Shown here: positions 543 to 17,225 of the stretch, piece after piece
How the letters are laid out: each line of letters begins with the position of its first letter
How positions within the stretch are numbered: position 1 is the first letter of the stretch
IMG/VR virus record: IMGVR_UViG_3300006327_000096
Coordinates: 1-20,272 of that record
Source: a virus
Length of the DNA: 20,272 nucleotides
Reading direction: 5' to 3' (one strand)
Translations under genes and position numbers: made by a program
Notes under the pieces: generated by a model
What the model was told of the DNA's origin: nothing
The model's database searches: none
The model's input: only the letters and a program-made list of their open reading frames with translations

Positions 543-3221
543 ATGAGTTATGTAGATGCTATGTTTGATCGTGATGCTGATATAATTCGTGTAGTAGAAC
601 GAAAAGAAGGCAAACGTCATTTCACAGAATATCCTATAAAATATACATTTTATTATAAAGATCCTCGCGGTAAGCATAAAAGCATTTATGGTGATCCTTT
701 AAATAGAATAGTATCTAAGTCAACTAAAGACTTTCGTAAAGAACTTGCAATAAACAATACAAAAACATTATTTGAAAGTGATGTAAATCCAATCTTTCAA
801 TGTTTAAGTGAAAACTATCTTAATCAAGATGCACCTAAACTTAATGTAGCATTTTGGGATATAGAAACAGACTTTGATCCTGAACGTGGCTTTGCTGATC
901 CATCAGATCCGTTTATGCCGATAACTGCAATTAGTGTACATTTACAATGGATGGATACACTTGTTACATTAGCAGTTCCTCCTAAAACAATTACAATGGA
1001 TGAAGCTAAAGAACAAACTAAAGAATTTCCTAACACACATTTATTTGAAAAAGAAGAAGAGATGTTAAAAACATTTCTTGATTTAATTGAAGATGCTGAT
1101 ATAATAAGTGGTTGGAATTCAGAAGGTTATGACATTCCATATACAATTAATAGAGTAAGCAGAATATTAAGCAAAGATGATACAAGACGCTTTTGTCTTT
1201 GGAAACAACTTCCAAAGAAACGTGAATATGAAAAATATGGGCGTAAACTTGAAACATATGATTTAGTAGGTCGTGTACATTTAGATAGTTTAGAACTGTA
1301 TAGGAAATATACATATTCTGAAACACATTCTTATAGATTAGATGCTATTGGTGAAGCAGAAATAGGTGAAACAAAAACAGTTTATGAAGGTACATTAGAC
1401 GAACTTTATAAAAACGATTTTAAAAAGTTTATTGAATATAATAGACAAGATGTTGCATTATTAGATAAACTAGATAAAAAATTAAAGTTTATCGATCTTA
1501 GTAATGAACTAGCACACGCAAATACTGTATTACTGCAAACTACAATGGGTGCAGTAGCAGTTACTGAACAAGCAATTATTAACGAAGCACACGGTAGAGG
1601 ATTACAAGTACCTAATAGAATAAAACGTGAACCAGGTACTACTGCGGCGGCTGGTGCTTATGTGGCATTTCCTAAAAAAGGATTACATAAGTGGATTGGA
1701 TCAATGGATTTAAATTCACTATATCCGTCTGTTATTAGAGCATTGAATATGGACCCAGCAACTATTGTAGGACAATTAAGACCAACAGATACAGATGCAA
1801 TGGTCGAAGAAGCAATGACATTACAGAAAAAATCATTTGCAGGTGCATGGGAAGGTCGCTTTGGCACATTAGAATACGAAGCAGTAATGGAACAACGTAA
1901 AGATATTGACATTACTATTGATTGGGAAAACGAAGATACTGAAATAATGAGTGCATATCAAGTTTACAAATTAATATTTGATAGCCGTAAACCTTGGATG
2001 TTAACAGCAAATGGTACTATTCTAACAAACGAATTTGATGGTGTTATACCTGGACTATTAAAACGTTGGTATGCAGAACGTAAAGAACTGCAAGAAATGA
2101 AACAAAAAGCAATCAACGCCGGTAATAAAATTGAAATAGACTTCTGGGATAAAAGGCAACTTGTTAAAAAGATTAACCTAAATAGTTTATATGGTGCAAT
2201 ATTAAATCCTGGTTGTAGATTCTTTGACAAACGTATTGGACAATCAACTACATTAACTGGAAGACAAATTGCAAAACATATGGCGGCTGAAGCTAACAAA
2301 GTTATTACAGGCCAATACGATCATGTAGGTGATAGTGTAATATACGGAGATACAGATTCTGTATACTTTAGTGCTTTTCCTGTATTGAAAAAAGAAATTG
2401 AAACAGGTAAATTACCTTGGACAAAAGAAAGTGTTATTAAATTATATGATCAAGTAGCAGATGAAGTTAATAAGACGTTTATCGAATTTATGGGCAAAGC
2501 ATTTCATTGTCCAAAGACTCGTGCAGATGTAATTGCGGCAGGTAGAGAAATGGTTGCAGAAAATGGCTTATATATTACAAAGAAACGTTATGCGGCATTA
2601 ATATATGATGATGAAGGTGAACGTAAAGATGTAGACGGCAAGCCAGGCAAAGTCAAAGCTATGGGTTTAGATCTTAAACGTTCAGATACTCCTGTGTTTA
2701 TGCAGAACTTTTTAGCTGAAATATTACACATGGTATTAACTGATAAAACAGAAGCTGAAGTATTAGAACGTATTACAGAATTTAGAACAGAATTTAAATT
2801 ACGTCCTGGATATGAAAAAGGCTCTCCTAAACGTGCTAATAAAATCGGTGAATATCAACGTAAAGAGGAAAAGCAAGGTAAAGCAAATATGCCCGGACAC
2901 GTTCGAGCAAGTATTAATTGGAATACATTAAAACGAATGAATGGAGACAAATATAGTCAAACAATTGTAGATGGTATGAAAGTTATTGTTTGCAAATTAA
3001 AACAAAATCCATTAGGTTATACAAGTGTTGCATACCCTACAGATGAATTACGTTTACCTAACTGGTTTAAAGAACTTCCATTTGATAATGAATCTATGGA
3101 AGAAACTATTATTGATAATAAACTAGGTAACTTAATTGGTGTATTGAACTGGGATGTTGCAAGTACACTACAACATAATACTTTCCAAACATTGTTTGAT
3201 TTTGGAGATGGAGAAAAATAA
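543..3221 (+). CDS. 43: T4-like family B DNA polymerase (gp43)
   Basis: The replicative DNA polymerase with a proofreading exonuclease, 892 residues (T4 gp43 is 898). The exonuclease motifs are Exo I (D106, E108), Exo II with Asn192 and Tyr196-Asp197, and Exo III with Tyr299 and Asp303. The polymerase motifs are A (D389 followed by SLYPS at 392-396), B (Lys542/543 through NSLYG at 547-551) and C (YGDTDS at 601-606, with catalytic D603 and D605). The C-terminus ends in a Phe/Asp-rich tail, where T4-type polymerases bind the clamp. A GAGG at 532-535 lies seven bases before the ATG. The gene appears intact, with no intein or split as seen in some relatives. The stop overlaps the next start by one base (TAATG). 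Confidence 0.97.
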   Translation: MSYVDAMFDRDADIIRVVERKEGKRHFTEYPIKYTFYYKDPRGKHKSIYGDPLNRIVSKSTKDFRKELAINNTKTLFESDVNPIFQCLSENYLNQDAPKLNVAFWDIETDFDPERGFADPSDPFMPITAISVHLQWMDTLVTLAVPPKTITMDEAKEQTKEFPNTHLFEKEEEMLKTFLDLIEDADIISGWNSEGYDIPYTINRVSRILSKDDTRRFCLWKQLPKKREYEKYGRKLETYDLVGRVHLDSLELYRKYTYSETHSYRLDAIGEAEIGETKTVYEGTLDELYKNDFKKFIEYNRQDVALLDKLDKKLKFIDLSNELAHANTVLLQTTMGAVAVTEQAIINEAHGRGLQVPNRIKREPGTTAAAGAYVAFPKKGLHKWIGSMDLNSLYPSVIRALNMDPATIVGQLRPTDTDAMVEEAMTLQKKSFAGAWEGRFGTLEYEAVMEQRKDIDITIDWENEDTEIMSAYQVYKLIFDSRKPWMLTANGTILTNEFDGVIPGLLKRWYAERKELQEMKQKAINAGNKIEIDFWDKRQLVKKINLNSLYGAILNPGCRFFDKRIGQSTTLTGRQIAKHMAAEANKVITGQYDHVGDSVIYGDTDSVYFSAFPVLKKEIETGKLPWTKESVIKLYDQVADEVNKTFIEFMGKAFHCPKTRADVIAAGREMVAENGLYITKKRYAALIYDDEGERKDVDGKPGKVKAMGLDLKRSDTPVFMQNFLAEILHMVLTDKTEAEVLERITEFRTEFKLRPGYEKGSPKRANKIGEYQRKEEKQGKANMPGHVRASINWNTLKRMNGDKYSQTIVDGMKVIVCKLKQNPLGYTSVAYPTDELRLPNWFKELPFDNESMEETIIDNKLGNLIGVLNWDVASTLQHNTFQTLFDFGDGEK

Positions 3222-3751
3222 TGCATGGAATGATAGACTTAGAAACATTAGGAGTTAAACCTAACTCTGCTATATTAACAGTTGGAGCAATTAAATTTAA
3301 TCCTTTTACTGATGACGAGCCTCATGATGGATTATACCTACGTATTAATGTAGATGACCAAACTGAAATAGGTCGCACAATTGACCAAGGTACATTAAAC
3401 TGGTGGGCTAAACAAAAAGCAAGTATAAGAGACGAAGCCCTAGGTGATGAAGACAGAGTAGACCTACGTGACTTTACTAAACGCCTAAATAAATGGTGTG
3501 TTGGTTTAGATTATTTGTGGGCTCAAGGGCCTATGTTTGATTTTGGTATGTTAGAAAACTTATATGAACAACTAGGTCAGCCAGTACCTTGGAACTTTTG
3601 GCAAATACGTGATAGTCGTACATTGTTTGCAATGATGCCTAAAGACCCTCGTAAAGCTATACAGAGCGACGCACACAACGCCTTAGCGGATTCTTACTAT
3701 CAAGCCAAGTGCGTCCAACAAACATATAAGCATTTTGGAATAAAGAGATGA
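3221..3751 (+). CDS. dexA: DexA-like DEDD 3'-5' exonuclease
   Basis: A 176-residue DnaQ-fold exonuclease resembling T4 DexA. Motif I is Asp6-x-Glu8 in an IDLET context. A Leu-Asn-Trp-Trp segment near residues 59-62 matches the Ile-Glu-Trp-Trp of DexA. Motif II is Asp107 within a Phe-Asp-Phe segment, and motif III is His152 with Asp157. Trp-Gln-x-Arg-Asp-x-Arg at 127-133 is another shared element. T4 DexA is 227 residues, so this version is shorter. A role in degrading host or single-stranded DNA, or in recycling, is inferred from DexA. The gene directly follows the polymerase with a one-base overlap and overlaps the HemB gene by four bases (ATGA), so all three should be co-translated. Confidence 0.85.
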   Translation: MHGMIDLETLGVKPNSAILTVGAIKFNPFTDDEPHDGLYLRINVDDQTEIGRTIDQGTLNWWAKQKASIRDEALGDEDRVDLRDFTKRLNKWCVGLDYLWAQGPMFDFGMLENLYEQLGQPVPWNFWQIRDSRTLFAMMPKDPRKAIQSDAHNALADSYYQAKCVQQTYKHFGIKR

Positions 3752-4608
3752 GATTGATACAGCCTATTTTTGCTGGTGTTGAAACTAAAGACACCGGTTT
3801 AGGCAAGAATAATAAAATTTATAATGCTTGGAAGGAAATTAACGAGCGAGTACAAAAAGATATTGATTTAGGTGTTAAAGAATTTCTTTTATTTTATATT
3901 CCAGAATTTAAATTAGGTGAAAAAGCAGATACTTGGAGGCAAGGCGAAGGTATCGACGAACATAAATTTGATCAAGTATGTGTAACTGCCGCTAGTCTTT
4001 CTACATTACCAATTAAACTAAATGTAGATGTTTGTTTATGTGCATATACCAAAGATGGGCATTGTTGCATAACAAATGATCAAGAACGTACAGACCAATT
4101 ATTATTAGAACAAGCAAAAGCAATTTATACAGCCTCTGGTGCCACGATTGCACCAAGTGATTGTCAACTTAATACTGTTAAGAATATTAAAAATATTAAA
4201 GATGGTAATATTCCAGTAATGAGTTATAGTACAAAGTTTCGCTCTACTTTTTACGGCGGATGGCGAAACGTAATGGGAATTGAAAAGGGTATCGAAAGAC
4301 CTTATCAGTTAGATGTATCATCGAGAGCAGATGCTATCCAACGTTCAATTGACTATGCTAATGATGGTGCAGATGAATTAATGGTTAAACCTGGTATGAC
4401 GAGTATAGATTTAATTCGTGATATCAAAAATGCTACAAACAAACCTTGTGGGGTGTTTCAAACCTCAGGAGAATACTTAGGTATAGGTGCGCCTGGTAGT
4501 TTATTAGAAACATACAAAATATTTAAACGAGCTGGAGCAGACTATATGATTTCTTATGGAGCAAGAGATTTATGTTATCTAAAAGTGTCGAAAGGAGACT
4601 TAAAATAA
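3748..4608 (+). CDS. hemB: Porphobilinogen synthase (delta-aminolevulinate dehydratase), short form
   Basis: This enzyme condenses two 5-aminolevulinate molecules to porphobilinogen, the first shared step of haem, chlorophyll and corrinoid synthesis. The 286-residue protein shows the family hallmarks. A zinc site has Cys96, Cys98 and Cys106 in a CLCAYTKDGHC segment, and an APSD motif lies at 135-138. The first Schiff-base lysine, Lys163, sits in SYSTKF followed by FYGGWR. The second, Lys214, is in the LMVKPG signature. A Ser-Gly-Glu-Tyr loop lies near residue 242. Bacterial HemB is usually about 320-340 residues; the missing part is the N-terminal arm, since the protein begins at the first barrel strand (LIQPIF). 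Upstream sequence encodes DexA in another frame, so the arm is truly absent. The gene overlaps dexA (ATGA) and purC (TAATG). No other tetrapyrrole gene is visible. The family call is near certain; its benefit to the phage is inferred. Confidence 0.93.
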   Translation: MRLIQPIFAGVETKDTGLGKNNKIYNAWKEINERVQKDIDLGVKEFLLFYIPEFKLGEKADTWRQGEGIDEHKFDQVCVTAASLSTLPIKLNVDVCLCAYTKDGHCCITNDQERTDQLLLEQAKAIYTASGATIAPSDCQLNTVKNIKNIKDGNIPVMSYSTKFRSTFYGGWRNVMGIEKGIERPYQLDVSSRADAIQRSIDYANDGADELMVKPGMTSIDLIRDIKNATNKPCGVFQTSGEYLGIGAPGSLLETYKIFKRAGADYMISYGARDLCYLKVSKGDLK

Positions 4609-5519
4609 TGGGTACTTTAGTAGTTGAAGGTAAAACAAAATTAATTACAAAAGGTGATAAGCCTTTTACAGTTAATATGATAGCAAAAGATTTTTTAACA
4701 GGTGGCGATGCCGCTAAAAAAGAAGAACTTACTGATATAGGAATACAAAAAACAAAACAAGCATCGAACGTATTTAAGATGCTTGAAAAGAATAATATTC
4801 CTACATCTTTTATTGAACAATCAAAACCAAATACTATGATTCATCATGAGTGTGAAATGATTCCACTTGAATTTGTTGTTAGACGTTATGCTTTTGGTAG
4901 TTACTTAAAACGTAACCCTGCACCATTAGATGTTGGCTATGGTCCTGACGTAAAACGTTTTGAAACTCCGGTATGGGAAATTTTTCATAAACATTCTGTT
5001 GTAATGCCTCCATGGGTAACTACACCTACACAAATGGATGAGAATGAAGCTAGAGAAAAATATCTAATAGATGGTTCATGGGCTGACGGTGTATATACAG
5101 ATCCTTATATTAAAATTACTGATGATGAATGGGGACTGTATTCTGCAAAAGATCCTATTAAAGGTGAACCTTTAATGACTACTGAAGTCTTACTTCGTGA
5201 CAGTGAATTAGAGACTGCAATTAATAAAATTGTTATTCCTGCCTTTGAAGCTATAGAAAATAGTTGGAAGGAAATTCGTACAGTTGACGGACCTGTACAT
5301 CTAGTAGATATAAAATTTGAATTAGGATGGCGAGTTTTTGGACATCCTAAAGATAGTCTTTTAGTATTATCAGATGTTGTTGATAATGATAGTTGGCGTA
5401 TTTGGCCTGGCGGAAATTCTAAAAAACAATTAGATAAACAATCTTTTAGAGATGGAGAAGATTTATCTAATGTTGCAAACAAGTACCAATTAGTAACAGA
5501 ACTAACGAGTAAATTTTAA
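4608..5519 (+). CDS. purC: SAICAR synthetase (phosphoribosylaminoimidazole-succinocarboxamide synthase)
   Basis: This enzyme joins aspartate to CAIR using ATP, in de novo purine synthesis. The 303-residue protein has EGKTKLI at 7-13 (N-terminal ATP-site strand), the VVRRYAFGSYLKR segment at 90-102 that matches the family's VVR-x-x-A-x-GS-x-x-KR signature, a Thr-Asp-Pro-Tyr at 164-167, DIKFELG at 234-240, and an LSDVVDNDSWR segment at 254-264 equivalent to the usual LxDExxxDxxR. It is longer than E. coli PurC (237) and nearer the yeast Ade1 type (about 300). The start is ATG 4608, preceded by AAAGGAG at 4591-4597; an in-frame ATG at 4572 lies inside hemB and has no such site. Marine phages often carry purine genes, presumably to feed DNA synthesis. 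Confidence 0.93.
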   Translation: MGTLVVEGKTKLITKGDKPFTVNMIAKDFLTGGDAAKKEELTDIGIQKTKQASNVFKMLEKNNIPTSFIEQSKPNTMIHHECEMIPLEFVVRRYAFGSYLKRNPAPLDVGYGPDVKRFETPVWEIFHKHSVVMPPWVTTPTQMDENEAREKYLIDGSWADGVYTDPYIKITDDEWGLYSAKDPIKGEPLMTTEVLLRDSELETAINKIVIPAFEAIENSWKEIRTVDGPVHLVDIKFELGWRVFGHPKDSLLVLSDVVDNDSWRIWPGGNSKKQLDKQSFRDGEDLSNVANKYQLVTELTSKF

Positions 5520-8046: not shown

Positions 8047-9591
8047 GTGAATAAAGATCTTACAACTGCACAAAAAGATTATGCAATCTTTCTTCCAGCA
8101 ATAAGTGGCTTCTTTGCAACTTATATAGGAAAACAACGTCATGACGAATACGTTGATAAAACAAGAGTACCGTCGAACTTTCCAAACGATGTAGAAAGTA
8201 TGAACTGGCTAAACCCACAAAAAGGTTTATTCAATTATCATTGGAGTTTATATAGTGCAGGTCATGCCGAACTAGATGTAAACAAACATTCACCTAAAGA
8301 AGATATGATCCGTAATAGGGATCGTAATAATAGTTGGCTACTTGGTGACTCAGGTGGTTTCCAAATAGGTAAAGGTGTTTGGGAAGGTGATTGGAAAGAT
8401 CCTAGCTGTCCTAAAGCTAAAAAGAAACGTGAACAAGTTTTAACTTGGATGGACGCATATATGGATTATGGAATGATATTAGATATTCCAGCTTGGGTAT
8501 CACGTTCGCCAGCTGGAGCAAAAGCAACAGGAATTGACAATTATCAAGATGCCGTTAATGCAACACGCATTAATAACGATTACTTTATGAAAAATCAAAA
8601 TGGTAATTGTAAATTCTTAAATGTTTTACAAGGCGAAAACCATGCTGATGCAGAAGATTGGTATCAGCAAATGAAAGATTATTGTGATCCTACAAAATAT
8701 AGTGATCATTTTAGAGGTTGGTCAATGGGTGGCCAAAATATGTGTGACATACACCTAGTACTAAAAAGAATTGTAGCATTACGTTTTGATGGACTATTAG
8801 AAACAGGTAAGCATGACTTTATGCACTTCTTAGGTACATCTAAACTTGAATGGGCGGCCTTACTGACTGACATACAAAGAGCAGTTCGTAAATACCATAA
8901 TCCAAACTATACAGTTACATTTGATTGTGCAAGTCCTTTCTTAGCAACTGCAAATGGGCAAGTTTATATTCAAACAGAAACAGAAGATAGATCTAAATGG
9001 GTATATCGAATGGTTCCGAGTATTGATGATAAAAAGTATGCTACAGATACTCGTTCATTTAAAGATGCAGTACTACAAGATGGTATATTTAAAAACTTTG
9101 AAGATTCTCCTATAACAGATGGTTTAAAAGTTTCAGATATTTGTTGTTATAAACCGGGCGACCTAAATAAAATAGGTAAAGAAGGTAAAACTAGTTGGGA
9201 TTCATTTAGCTATGCAATTCAAATGGGACATAATGTTTGGCACCATATTAATGCAGTACAAGAAGCAAATAGACAATATGATAACAATGTTATTCCAAAA
9301 ATGCTAGTTGAAGAAAAATTTGATAGAGTTTATTTTAGAGATGTTGTTGAGGCGATATTTGCAACAGATAATAAAGATACTGCAATGGCCGTAATAGAAG
9401 AATTTAATAAGTTCTGGTTATCTATTATTGGTACTAGAGGTGCAACAGGTAAAAAGACAATTAACGCAAGTACACAGTTCGGTAATCTTTTTTGGGAAGG
9501 TGATGATATTAATGGTATTACACAAGATGCCGATAACGAACTTGAGTTAGAAGAAAGCAAGTTAGAGGAACTGGAGAATGAACAAAAGTAA
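8047..9591 (+). CDS. dpdA: TGT/DpdA-like 7-deazaguanine base-exchange enzyme
   Basis: A 514-residue protein of the tRNA-guanine transglycosylase superfamily, probably the phage DNA branch (DpdA) that swaps guanine for a 7-deazaguanine. The DSGGFQ motif at 101-106 gives Asp101, matching the general acid/base (Asp102 in Zymomonas TGT). A Phe-Asp-Cys-x-x-Pro segment gives Asp293, aligned with the TGT nucleophile in FDCVxPTR. A barrel segment WSMGG near 226-230 matches the Gly-Gly substrate loop. The CxCxxC zinc site is reduced: only a Cys-Cys pair (ICCYKPGD) and a later Met-Gly-His-Asn remain. The C-terminus is acidic and Glu-rich. The start is GTG 8047 behind a purine-rich AGGGGGAA. It lies 9 bases after the clamp gene under the same promoter, and FolE and QueE are encoded further on. 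The TGT fold is clear; DNA rather than tRNA as target is inferred from context. Confidence 0.8.
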   Translation: MNKDLTTAQKDYAIFLPAISGFFATYIGKQRHDEYVDKTRVPSNFPNDVESMNWLNPQKGLFNYHWSLYSAGHAELDVNKHSPKEDMIRNRDRNNSWLLGDSGGFQIGKGVWEGDWKDPSCPKAKKKREQVLTWMDAYMDYGMILDIPAWVSRSPAGAKATGIDNYQDAVNATRINNDYFMKNQNGNCKFLNVLQGENHADAEDWYQQMKDYCDPTKYSDHFRGWSMGGQNMCDIHLVLKRIVALRFDGLLETGKHDFMHFLGTSKLEWAALLTDIQRAVRKYHNPNYTVTFDCASPFLATANGQVYIQTETEDRSKWVYRMVPSIDDKKYATDTRSFKDAVLQDGIFKNFEDSPITDGLKVSDICCYKPGDLNKIGKEGKTSWDSFSYAIQMGHNVWHHINAVQEANRQYDNNVIPKMLVEEKFDRVYFRDVVEAIFATDNKDTAMAVIEEFNKFWLSIIGTRGATGKKTINASTQFGNLFWEGDDINGITQDADNELELEESKLEELENEQK

Positions 9592-12785: not shown

Positions 12786-13254
12786 AAATAGGAAACGAAT
12801 TATTTACGATCGTCATAATAATATTCCGTATTTAATTAGATATTATTTGTTTTTAAAAGAAAGAAAAAATTTTCCTTTTAATATTACGTTGCATAAAATT
12901 TTAGTTAGCGATTTAGATGACTTGCATGACCATCCATGGAACTATGCTACATTAATTTTAAAAGGTGGATATTATGAACACACACCAGAAGGTAAATTTT
13001 GGCGTGGTCCAGGACACTTTCGTTTTTGTAAAGCATCATCTTTACATAGATTAGAACTTGATAAAGACGAAGATGGAAATGAACTACCTTGTTGGAGTTT
13101 ATTTTATATGGGGCGAAAACAACAAGAATGGGGTTTTATAAAAAATGGCAAATGGATACACAATGAAAAATATCTTGCTGAAAAAAATAAAGAACCTAAA
13201 AATAGATTAGAACAAATGGCATCATTAACACATGATCCTATTGCTCATTGTTAA
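12769..13254 (+). CDS. Cupin-like metal-binding protein
   Basis: A 161-residue protein with a cupin-type beta-barrel pattern. A His-Asp-His-Pro-Trp segment (genomic 12926-12940) gives the HxH metal pair. A KGGYYEH strand follows, and later a Ser-Leu-His-Arg-Leu segment supplies another likely ligand. Cupins range from dioxygenases to sugar epimerases and isomerases, so the reaction is open; no 2OG-oxygenase Asp is present in the first motif. ATG 12769 is chosen because GAGGA at 12756-12760 lies eight bases upstream; in-frame ATGs at 12754 and 12772 are alternatives. A gene order of glycosyltransferase, cupin and phosphoribosyltransferase hints at nucleotide or sugar metabolism. Confidence 0.75.
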   Translation: MMDLFKNRKRIIYDRHNNIPYLIRYYLFLKERKNFPFNITLHKILVSDLDDLHDHPWNYATLILKGGYYEHTPEGKFWRGPGHFRFCKASSLHRLELDKDEDGNELPCWSLFYMGRKQQEWGFIKNGKWIHNEKYLAEKNKEPKNRLEQMASLTHDPIAHC

Positions 13255-13262
13255 GGAGAATT

Positions 13263-13751
13263 ATGGTTAAAAAACATTATTACAGTTGGACTAATATAGA
13301 AAATATGTGTAAACAGATTGTACTTGGTATGTACAAAGATAAATGGATACCTGAGTACATTGTAGGTATTACACGAGGTGGTAATATACCAGCGGCTATA
13401 TTAAGTAATATGTTAGATATTAGATGTGAATCATTAAAAGTTGCATTACGTGATCACAAAAGAAAAAATGAATCTAATACATGGATGGCTGAAGATGCCG
13501 TTGCAAAAAGAAAAAATATTTTAATAATAGATGATATCAATGACACAGGTGCTACTTTCAAATGGATTAAAAATGATTGGGCTATTAATGGTCATGACAA
13601 TGTTCGCTTTGCAGTTTTAACTGAAAACTTATCAAGTGAATTTGGAGATGTCAAATATTGGGCTCATGAAGTAAACAAAGCCGAGGATGATGTATGGTTA
13701 GTATATCCTTGGGAGAACGTTGGATCGTATAAAGATGACAAATGTTGTTGA
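13263..13751 (+). CDS. Purine-type phosphoribosyltransferase
   Basis: A 162-residue type I phosphoribosyltransferase, which would attach a base to PRPP for salvage. The PRPP-binding motif is ILIIDDINDTGATF at 86-99, with the acidic pair Asp90-Asp91 and the following Thr-Gly turn. The N-terminal GITRGGNIPA at 35-44 is the pyrophosphate loop, and a Tyr-Trp-Ala-His segment follows in the C-terminal part. Length and motifs are nearest to hypoxanthine/xanthine phosphoribosyltransferases; a trailing Trp-Leu-Val-Tyr-Pro-Trp is typical of the xanthine/guanine type. AAGGAG at 13254-13259 sits just before ATG 13263, which is preferred over an in-frame start at 13248. The gene may complement PurC by salvaging purines from host DNA. 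Confidence 0.87.
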   Translation: MVKKHYYSWTNIENMCKQIVLGMYKDKWIPEYIVGITRGGNIPAAILSNMLDIRCESLKVALRDHKRKNESNTWMAEDAVAKRKNILIIDDINDTGATFKWIKNDWAINGHDNVRFAVLTENLSSEFGDVKYWAHEVNKAEDDVWLVYPWENVGSYKDDKCC

Positions 13752-13962
13752 GTTTAAAAAGAAAAAAGAAGTTTATGTTTTAAAATTTAAAACAGCAAAT
13801 GTTATTAAGTTTACAAAAAATGAAGAGCATGATGACATTATGTTAGAAGTGCAACAAAACAAAGGTACTGCTTGGGTACCAGCACTTAACCTTAACGAAG
13901 CCCGTAAACGATTACATTCAATGATGACTGTACTCGAATGGGTAGAGGAGCATGACAAATGA
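13735..13962 (+). CDS. Small hypothetical protein
   Basis: A 75-residue protein starting at ATG 13735, 17 bases before the end of the phosphoribosyltransferase gene. The N-terminal half is a Lys-rich strand region (Val-Val-Glu-Phe-Lys-Lys-Lys), the middle is acidic, and the C-terminus is a Met/Leu-rich helix ending in Trp-Val-Glu-Glu-His. The C-terminal codons overlap the next ATG as ATGA. No family is recognised. Overlaps at both ends and coding-like composition support it as real. Confidence 0.7.
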   Translation: MTNVVEFKKKKEVYVLKFKTANVIKFTKNEEHDDIMLEVQQNKGTAWVPALNLNEARKRLHSMMTVLEWVEEHDK

Positions 13963-14354
13963 AACTAGAAGAAACTGTTTGGCACAAAAATAGTGAACCA
14001 TTAGTTAAAACAAAATATTTTTATGTATGGAAGGACAAGTATCCAGTAACTGAAGGACACTTATTGTTTGTTCCTAAAGAAGAAGATTGGCATCATTTAG
14101 CACAATGCTATAAGGCCGCTTACCAATGGGGTTATGATTGGGTACAAAAAGGATTTTGTGATGCTTATAATATTGGTCAGAATGTTGGCCGTGAAGCAGG
14201 GCAAACTATAATGTATGCTCATGTACATTTAATTCCTAGACGTAAAGCTGATATGTCTGATCCTACTGGCGGAGTACGTCATGCTATTCCGGAAAAAGGA
14301 AACTATAAACAAAACGAAGCTGATCCACAACAAATGAAATTGTTCGAAGAATGA
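13959..14354 (+). CDS. HIT-family (histidine triad) nucleotide-binding protein
   Basis: A 131-residue protein with the HIT layout: an N-terminal sheet with EGHLLFVPK near residues 32-40 (family GHxLVxPK), a central helix, NxGxxxGREAGQT near 72-83, and the catalytic loop at 85-93. The usual HxHxH triad is Tyr86-x-His88-x-His90, so the first histidine is replaced by tyrosine. The middle histidine, the nucleophile in this family, is kept as His88. HIT enzymes hydrolyse or transfer nucleotides from dinucleoside polyphosphates or nucleoside phosphoramidates. The ATGA overlaps at both ends place it in the same operon as the phosphoribosyltransferase, consistent with nucleotide metabolism. Confidence 0.87.
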   Translation: MKLEETVWHKNSEPLVKTKYFYVWKDKYPVTEGHLLFVPKEEDWHHLAQCYKAAYQWGYDWVQKGFCDAYNIGQNVGREAGQTIMYAHVHLIPRRKADMSDPTGGVRHAIPEKGNYKQNEADPQQMKLFEE

Positions 14355-15521: not shown

Positions 15522-16199
15522 TTGGGAAAAGTAAGCGAAGCAATTAAAAAAAGACTTAAAGAGTCTAATATAAGATTTTATGCTAATGACAATATTAGCG
15601 AACATATCTATGATGACGAGAGAGATCAACTTCAAATTGAAGTGCAAGAGGCATTTCAAAAAGTTCTTGATGCATTAATAATAGATACTGAAAATGATCA
15701 CAATACTCGGAGTACTGCAAAACGGGTAGCAAAAATGTACGTCAACGAAATATTTGGCGGACGTTATAAAAGCAGACCAGCAGTTACCAGTTTTCCGAAT
15801 ATGGGGTATAAAAGTTTATACACTAGTGGACCAATTAGTATTAGGTCCACCTGTGCTCACCATTTTCAAAACATTGTTGGTAATGCATGGGTAGGAATTA
15901 TTCCCGAAGATGAAGTTATCGGTCTTAGTAAGTTTAATCGACTTGTTCACCATGTTGCTGAACGCCCTCAAATACAAGAAGAAATGACTACAGAGATTGC
16001 TAACGAGTTGTCTAAGTTTGCAAAAACAAGACACGTGGCAGTTGTAGTTAAAGCAGAACATCATTGTATGACACAACGTGGTGTAAAAGAACACGAAAGT
16101 GATATGACTACTGCTATCATGTTAGGTGCATTTAACGAAGATCCTGCACTAAAACAAGAATTCTATGATATTTGTTTGAGTATGAAAGGACACGGATAA
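15522..16199 (+). CDS. folE: GTP cyclohydrolase I
   Basis: This enzyme converts GTP to dihydroneopterin triphosphate, the first step of both folate and 7-deazaguanine synthesis. The 225-residue protein has the zinc ligands Cys111, His114 and Cys182, one residue off from E. coli (110, 113, 181). Other family segments are TAKRVAKMYVNEIF near 65-78, GLSKFNRLVHHVAERPQ at about 138-154, and HHCMTQRGV at 180-188. The usual CEHHF is CAHHF here, with Ala112 replacing Glu. The start is TTG 15522 behind GGAG at 15511-15514, a rare start codon that may limit yield. No closer ATG is available, since the first in-frame ATG would remove the N-terminal helix. It heads the operon that includes QueE. Confidence 0.95.
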   Translation: MGKVSEAIKKRLKESNIRFYANDNISEHIYDDERDQLQIEVQEAFQKVLDALIIDTENDHNTRSTAKRVAKMYVNEIFGGRYKSRPAVTSFPNMGYKSLYTSGPISIRSTCAHHFQNIVGNAWVGIIPEDEVIGLSKFNRLVHHVAERPQIQEEMTTEIANELSKFAKTRHVAVVVKAEHHCMTQRGVKEHESDMTTAIMLGAFNEDPALKQEFYDICLSMKGHG

Positions 16200-16369
16200 T
16201 GGATAGTGTTGCTTCGCTTACCACACCCAGAGAGTTTTGGGACCGAAAGGTTGATAAGGCAATACAAATGTTTGAGTATGGTGCTTGGACAGAAGAAAAG
16301 TTTTTGGACGAAATGTCCAGATTAGGCTATGATAAGGCTGTTATAAGGGAGAAGATATATGAAGGCTAG
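16199..16369 (+). CDS. Small hypothetical protein between folE and queE
   Basis: A 56-residue protein starting at ATG 16199 in a TAATG overlap with folE; an in-frame ATG at 16172 lies inside folE and is not preferred. It is helical, with Trp-Asp-Arg-Lys at 18-21, a central FEYGAWTEE segment and a C-terminal Tyr-Asp-Lys-Ala-Val-Ile-Arg helix. It overlaps queE by 11 bases. Its constant coupling to two pathway genes suggests a partner role, but nothing in the sequence names one. Confidence 0.7.
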   Translation: MDSVASLTTPREFWDRKVDKAIQMFEYGAWTEEKFLDEMSRLGYDKAVIREKIYEG

Positions 16370-17225
16370 AGTGTGCGAATCATTCTATAGTGTACAAGGA
16401 GAAGGTAGATTTGTTGGTGTACCTTCGGTCTTTTTACGTATGTTTGGTTGTAATTTTAAATGCCGTGGTTTTGGAATGCCACGTGGTGAATTGGCAAATG
16501 ATTATGATCTAATTGCTAAAGACCACCTGGAAAACCCGGATAAGTATAAAGTATTGAAAGATTTACCATTAGTGCATAGGGGTTGTGATTCTTATGCATC
16601 GTGGGATCCTAGATTTAAAAAATTTACTACGGATTACCAACTAGATGATTTAGTTGATGAATTACTTTCTCTTACACCAGAAGGCAAATGGACTTGCGAT
16701 AATGGGCAAGATATCCACCTAGTAATAACAGGGGGTGAACCACTGCTCGGATGGCAAAGGATGTACATAGAGCTATTTGAACATCCTCGAATGGGAGATT
16801 TAAAAAATGTTACGTTTGAAACAAACACAACGCAAGAGCTTAGAGATGATTTCCGAGATTATATCGGATCTAAAGCAAGATTTCATACTACTTGGTCGTG
16901 CTCTCCGAAACTTACTGTCAGTGGCGAGTTATGGAGTGATGCTATCAAGCCTGAAATTGCTAATTCATATTTTACTGTCCCTGACACTCACTTGTATCTT
17001 AAGTTTGTGGTCGCTGATGAAGTGGATGTGGACGAAGTTACAAAAGCTGTGGAAGAATATAAATCTGCCGGAGTTGAGTGTCCCGTCTATTGTATGGCCG
17101 TGGGCGGGTGCTATGAAGAATACCAAGAAAACGCAAAAACAGTCGCCAACCTCGCAATGGGACGAGGATGGAGATACACGCCAAGATTACACGTCGATAT
17201 CTTCGGGAACTCCTGGGGAACTTGA
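16359..17225 (+). CDS. queE: 7-carboxy-7-deazaguanine synthase, radical SAM
   Basis: This radical SAM enzyme rearranges 6-carboxytetrahydropterin to 7-carboxy-7-deazaguanine. The 288-residue protein begins with the QueE signature SFYSVQGEGRFVGVPS (residues 8-23). The iron-sulphur cysteines are Cys31 and Cys35 (CNFKC). The third, normally two residues after the second, is Phe38 here, and Cys76 in a CDSYASW context fits as the displaced ligand. This gives Cx3Cx40C, with about 38 extra residues carrying a Gly-Phe-Gly-Met-Pro-Arg-Gly loop. SAM-binding ITGGEPLLGW (about 124-133) and TFETNTTQ (about 148-155) follow. QueE is usually 210-250 residues, so the loop explains much of the excess. The 3' end is markedly richer in G+C than its neighbours. 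I recall a similar loop in cyanophage proteins. Confidence 0.92.
   Translation: MKARVCESFYSVQGEGRFVGVPSVFLRMFGCNFKCRGFGMPRGELANDYDLIAKDHLENPDKYKVLKDLPLVHRGCDSYASWDPRFKKFTTDYQLDDLVDELLSLTPEGKWTCDNGQDIHLVITGGEPLLGWQRMYIELFEHPRMGDLKNVTFETNTTQELRDDFRDYIGSKARFHTTWSCSPKLTVSGELWSDAIKPEIANSYFTVPDTHLYLKFVVADEVDVDEVTKAVEEYKSAGVECPVYCMAVGGCYEEYQENAKTVANLAMGRGWRYTPRLHVDIFGNSWGT

Follow-up and report, generated by a model that had tools for sequence, protein, structure and literature searches.

An arm-less porphobilinogen synthase homologue shared by a clade of viral genomes

We report here that a viral genome fragment encodes a homologue of porphobilinogen synthase (PBGS, HemB/ALAD) that has no N-terminal arm and keeps its active-site residues. 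The whole stretch of DNA analysed, hereafter the window, is a record of 20,272 bases and probably corresponds to a fragment of a viral genome, that of a large marine bacteriophage. Its hemB is a host-derived gene that has been kept intact across viral genomes. We consider, with a probability of about three in four, that the product would be a catalytically competent zinc-type PBGS serving as a phage AMG for heme supply, and that the gene would be of alphaproteobacterial origin and later exchanged.

HemB makes the first ring of heme. The earlier known contacts of phages with tetrapyrrole metabolism lay at its start (AlaS), at HemC and HemF, and at its end (heme oxygenase and bilin reductases). 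If our reading is true, with a viral HemB and with contigs bearing five to seven genes of the pathway, some marine phages would encode most of the heme steps, presumably so that respiration continues at a time when the host genome is shut down.

Identity of the reading frame and its active site

The gene lies on the plus strand at positions 3748..4608, from an ATG at 3748 to a TAA at 4606-4608, and codes for 286 aa. The first-pass annotation had taken it for a phage-encoded HemB, an identification that is now confirmed. The protein matches the Pfam ALAD profile (PF00490) with 160.3 bits (8.5e-47; curated cut-off 24.6), and its top sequence match in the PDB is the E. coli PBGS 1b4e (E=1.6e-30). 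An AlphaFold2 model, computed from 49 aligned sequences of the window and the loci, displays a confident alpha-beta barrel (pLDDT 93.7, pTM 0.92), and the 50 best PDB matches returned by Foldseek for this model are all PBGS, with TM values up to 0.84. A chance match is excluded by these profile and sequence scores together with the dN/dS values given below. PHROGs holds no family matching the protein. The NCBIfam equivalog PRK09283 is the best-matching model, yet it gives 150 bits against a cut-off of 297, and the window HemB is thus too divergent to be named automatically by that equivalog.

Comparison with viral and bacterial HemB, which had been proposed as a check, agrees with HemB for the catalytic lysines as well as for the fold. 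The Schiff-base lysines K163 (4234..4236, plus strand) and K214 (4387..4389, plus strand) align with K195 and K247 of E. coli and stand in TKF and MVKP contexts in 79/79 viral rows, K163 being invariant in all cellular rows as well. The zinc cysteines C96, C98 and C106, which correspond to E. coli C120, C122 and C130, are unchanged in the 79 full-length viral homologues; as predicted from the sequence alone, both lysines and all three cysteines are therefore intact. The cysteines are found with D94 and H105, equally invariant (79/79), in the segment DVCLCAYTKDGHC (codons 94-106, 4027..4065, plus strand). The window protein also has S137, Y160, R173, R184, Q187, S240 and Y270, and the substrate set known in E. 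coli numbering as D118, S165, Y192, R205, R216, Q220, S273 and Y312 is complete. R184 (4297..4299, plus strand) is the counterpart of E. coli R216; owing to a deletion in the lid, the R216 column is shifted by one in the 79-row census, and R184 was confirmed through the R.YQ spacing in the alignments. With this residue read by its spacing, none of the catalytic, zinc and substrate residues checked changes in the 79 viral rows. The E. coli HemB row used in the alignment, the residue census and the quick tree matches the PDB alignments where they overlap, and the arm is visible in the cellular rows taken from databases as well. Judged by its three-cysteine site, the window HemB is a zinc-type PBGS.

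The protein thus shares with cellular PBGS (E. coli 1b4e, human 1e51) the alpha-beta barrel, the two Schiff-base lysines, the zinc-cysteine triad and both sets of substrate-binding residues. It differs from them by the absence of the N-terminal arm and of the allosteric magnesium ligand, by a one-residue deletion in the active-site lid and by shorter loops (286 against 323-356 aa); several loops are likewise shortened in the alignment of viral HemB with the cellular rows. In the lid, R184 is one residue nearer to Q187 than in the cellular form (R-x-Y-Q versus R-x-x-Y-Q). R.YQ alone is found in 82/82 viral sequences, and R..YQ is present in 80/80 of the cellular ones. The SDMMDG motif also departs from its otherwise conserved D-G, with L141-N142 in the window HemB. 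We count the deletion between R184 and Q187, this D-G change and the NCBIfam score below its cut-off against our explanation. One could assume from the lid and motif changes that the enzyme itself has changed, keeping the ALA-binding machinery and making another product, or acting as a sink for ALA or zinc. This appears unlikely, given that the residues listed above are invariant in all 79 viral rows and that the D-G change is common to viral HemB and to the sole HemB of HIMB59-type cells.

Loss of the N-terminal arm

In cellular PBGS, control works through a switch between octamer and hexamer for which the N-terminal arm is required. We took about 25-35 residues ahead of barrel strand 1 as the criterion for such a switching (morpheein) PBGS. 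The window HemB has 0 residues there: it starts at strand 1, and its first strand is modelled from residue 2. The arm is truly absent, as the first-pass annotation had proposed, because the frame upstream of the ATG holds only 6 sense codons, none of them a start, before an in-frame stop. Across the 82 viral loci, with partial loci set apart, the possible N-terminal extension is 0-11 residues, except for one spurious value of 30. Cellular homologues have at least 23 residues in nearly all rows and 15-17 in the HIMB59 type, the few cellular rows with smaller values being misleading because their alignment starts inside the protein.

The position of E. coli E232, which we take to be a ligand of the allosteric magnesium, is occupied by R199 in the window HemB. 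Among the 79 viral rows it is R in 62, S in 11 and K in 6, and the residue census gives S for the HIMB59 group. This magnesium has been linked to the octamer interface of PBGS (PMC7729013). Being arm-less, the viral HemB is predicted to be unable to use the arm-barrel contact that switches octamer and hexamer, and therefore would probably be a constitutive enzyme in the form of a dimer or some other small assembly, and should not respond to magnesium. The earlier suggestion of a smaller, possibly unregulated form is accordingly upheld as far as the sequence goes, by the loss of the arm and the replacement of E232 with R, S or K, and for size and regulation themselves it stays a prediction. On the other hand, arm loss could lower the activity of the viral HemB, since in human PBGS the octamer-specific arm interface steadies the closed active-site lid (PMC7729013); the rate could drop unless the lid changes compensate. 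With a natural arm-less lineage at hand, and an arm of half length in its closest relatives among cells, it becomes a testable question whether the arm serves catalysis or only control.

A viral clade exchanged between phages

In the window, hemB belongs to a block together with a family B DNA polymerase (543..3221), a dexA-like 3'-5' exonuclease (3221..3751; Pfam Rv2179c-like, 8e-38; phrog_255 exonuclease) and a purC-like SAICAR synthetase (4608..5519; Pfam SAICAR_synt, 5e-34), all on the plus strand. The overlaps that had been noticed on both sides of hemB are real: the dexA stop and the hemB start share 4 nt (ATGA), and the hemB stop and the purC start share 1 nt (TAATG). A 37-nt overlap with purC, resulting from a mechanical ORF start at 4572, was discarded in favour of the start at 4608, which lies behind GGAG. 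The order polymerase-dexA-hemB-purC is that of the window's own lineage. In the neighbour clustering of 82 loci, dexA is directly upstream of hemB in 12, and the same dexA-hemB-purC order, for which a search had been advised, was found in 7, counting the window and its duplicate (L002). In L127-L129 and L142, hemB is followed by the next gene with no purC in between.

Two scans of IMG/VR yielded about 80 further loci encoding viral HemB, 45-100% identical, and altogether the arm-less form is carried by 82 viral loci and 52 distinct proteins, in uncultured aquatic phages. The gene had been described as unusual at this place; this holds for the locus, but not for the gene, which marks a viral clade with 52 or more distinct proteins and occurs in many gene contexts. 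All viral HemB fall into one clade (UFBoot/SH-aLRT 100/99), and the sister group of this clade is the HemB of HIMB59/'Pelagibacteraceae' (100/96), as in a quick tree of 132 rows; the names HIMB59 and SAR11 for these cells are those of record titles only. Both groups lie inside a divergent YGAR subfamily that also comprises Acidobacteria, Bdellovibrionota, Marinimicrobia and some alphas. The stem leading to the viral clade is long, with 0.57-0.8 changes per column, which would fit a changed enzyme.

The sister proteins (L023, L042, L046 and L033; about 307 aa) have in common with viral HemB the signatures YGAR, GLGxN, KF(R/K)S and S-D-x-x-x-N-T and the loss of E232. Their arm is already cut to about 16 aa, whereas viral HemB has not even this short arm; the viral proteins also differ by shorter loops and by the R.YQ deletion in the lid, and are only about 40% identical to them. 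In the HIMB59/'Pelagibacteraceae' genomes searched, the short-armed protein is the single HemB, so this divergent form must work in cells. A class-wide search found a canonical HemB in most Alphaproteobacteria, the HIMB59-like form being rare. One alphaproteobacterial MAG (L020, genome G029) carries a canonical HemB gene together with a second one that belongs to the divergent YGAR type. The cyanophage frame in which the gene had first been placed has to be abandoned, as the closest enzymes from cells are those of Alphaproteobacteria and, among viruses, the best-placed relative is a pelagimyophage. We propose that the viral hemB would stem from a single, ancient acquisition of an alphaproteobacterial gene for a HemB like that of HIMB59/'Pelagibacteraceae', would then have lost its arm, and would afterwards have passed among different myophage lineages.

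Exchange between phage lineages is suggested by the identity of HemB, which is discordant with that of the flanking genes. Compared with L125, the window is 92% identical in polymerase and 90% in dexA, and only 68% in HemB; compared with L101, HemB is 83% identical and the polymerase about 30%. These exchanges, as well as dN/dS values of 0.4-0.5 in a few close pairs, could also be expected of a decaying or marginally active passenger gene moved by recombination without benefit for the phage. Such a gene is improbable in view of the 52 distinct proteins without decay of active-site residues and of the tight overlaps with neighbouring genes. Moreover, viral hemB is under purifying selection, with pairwise dN/dS of 0.05-0.5 in well-diverged pairs, mostly about 0.05-0.31.

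Another hypothesis is that the contig is chimeric or misassigned and that its hemB is host DNA, the window record being a metagenomic fragment without isolate. This is largely refuted and only a very slight chance is left to it. The second record, L002, is 99.99% identical to the window over 10.4 kb, and independent contigs place hemB between phage polymerase/exonuclease and purC. Viral HemB forms its own clade, at most 42% identical to any cellular row, and the contigs that bear its relatives also encode T4-like terminase, sheath and gp23.

Heme genes in related contigs and the proposed role

At some loci, hemB adjoins genes identified by Pfam as HemF, HemC and HemE. The order hemF-hemC-hemE-hemB occurs in L137-L151, where the ends of hemC-hemE-hemB overlap (for example L148:7321-10831 and G003:84688-88166, with AlaS about 8 kb away); hemF followed by hemB-hemC is found in L115-L123, and hemE-hemB-hemC in L122 and L132. 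Family searches in up to 30 viral contigs detected HemF in 10, HemC in 8, AlaS in 6, HemE in 5, heme oxygenase in 4 and bilin reductase in 3, while ferrochelatase and HemD were found in 0 of the 16 viral contigs searched for them, many of which are fragments. A 177-kb contig (G002; L118/L168-L176) carries six tetrapyrrole genes, namely AlaS near the T4-like large terminase, neck genes and tail sheath, HemF-HemB-HemC apart from AlaS, and HemO and a bilin reductase at 9-10 kb. This pelagimyophage contig has a gp23 that shares 90.7% identity with the gp23 of Pelagibacter phage Mosig. A 107-kb contig (G003) has the same six genes plus HemE; its viral nature, supported by IMG/VR and by matches to RNR, ligase and tail-spike of phage type, is somewhat less certain. 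In some lineages, most of the heme pathway is predicted on one viral contig. Within the hemF-hemC-hemE-hemB operons porphobilinogen is the expected product of the same HemB clade, which argues further against a changed enzyme.

We propose that in the infected cell the viral HemB would condense two 5-aminolevulinic acids into porphobilinogen, and that this output would keep or raise the supply of tetrapyrrole (heme) during infection. Phages with hemB would probably keep the heme supply of their hosts running. A push by the phage on host tetrapyrrole flux, suggested from the start, is plausible, and is strengthened because relatives carry viral AlaS, HemC, HemE and HemF. Some lineages would have built a viral pathway around hemB, with AlaS, HemB, HemC, HemE and HemF, then heme oxygenase and bilin reductase. 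A more detailed version, to which we would give slightly less than even odds, is that an arm-less, non-allosteric PBGS in a small constitutive assembly would be, in some lineages, one step of a viral route from glycine/succinyl-CoA to bilin. The viral part (AlaS, HemB, HemC, HemE, HemF, HemO and bilin reductase) would cover most of heme synthesis, and the host would provide HemD, the late oxidase and ferrochelatase.

A parallel can be drawn with the viral 5-aminolevulinate synthase valaS, which occurs with hemO and pcyA/X and is active in E. coli (Wegner et al. 2024, PMC11480375). It is likewise a tetrapyrrole AMG of aquatic myophages and stands one step before HemB in the pathway, and some hemB contigs also have AlaS, HemO and bilin reductase. 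A paper of 2020 described HemF (coproporphyrinogen oxidase) and HemC (porphobilinogen deaminase) in a deep pelagimyophage ecotype (PMC7029224), which represents the same virus group as G002 and the same pathway. The main text of the former names neither hemB nor porphobilinogen synthase, and that of the latter does not name HemB. We found no report of a viral HemB or HemE in the literature, subscription journals and preprints being outside the scope of the search. The enzyme family itself and the idea of tetrapyrrole AMGs are already known; as far as we found, what is new is the clade of viral HemB, with the arm-less form and the operons. It also seems that no phage isolate in INPHARED carries the viral HemB family. 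The tblastn matches obtained there for HemB, HemC, HemE and HemF look like bacterial contamination or mislabelled bacterial contigs: they are unannotated Listeria/Salmonella/Escherichia 'phage' fragments, most of them a few kb long, Salmonella contigs and an 'Acinetobacter phage' assembly with host-type hem genes. The phage-labelled records OR847151, OR848524, OR851529, OR845814, OR844993, CAKLQH02 and CAKLQF02 appear to be contamination of this kind, with host-type hem genes.

The window's own lineage is a different case. Its polymerase and the gp23 of its 200-kb sister contig (G001) find their closest matches in jumbo phages such as Phosso and Atu_ph07. This sister contig has hemB, and family searches found no AlaS, HemC, HemE, HemF, HemO or bilin reductase on it, a result that we count against our explanation and that a changed enzyme would explain. 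Under our preferred reading, this lineage seems to keep hemB alone, with host enzymes supplying the other steps. Other genes of nucleotide metabolism surround the replication block of the window: besides purC, they are, in the order in which they are listed, a phosphoribosyltransferase (13248-13751) and a HIT-domain protein (13959-14354). The window also encodes GTP cyclohydrolase I (FolE, 15522-16199), a QueE-like radical SAM protein matched in its N-terminal part only (16359-17225) and a protein of 514 aa that matched no family and whose sequence resembles a DpdA-type transglycosylase (8047-9591); together, these FolE, QueE-like and DpdA-like genes could point to a possible 7-deazaguanine modification of DNA.
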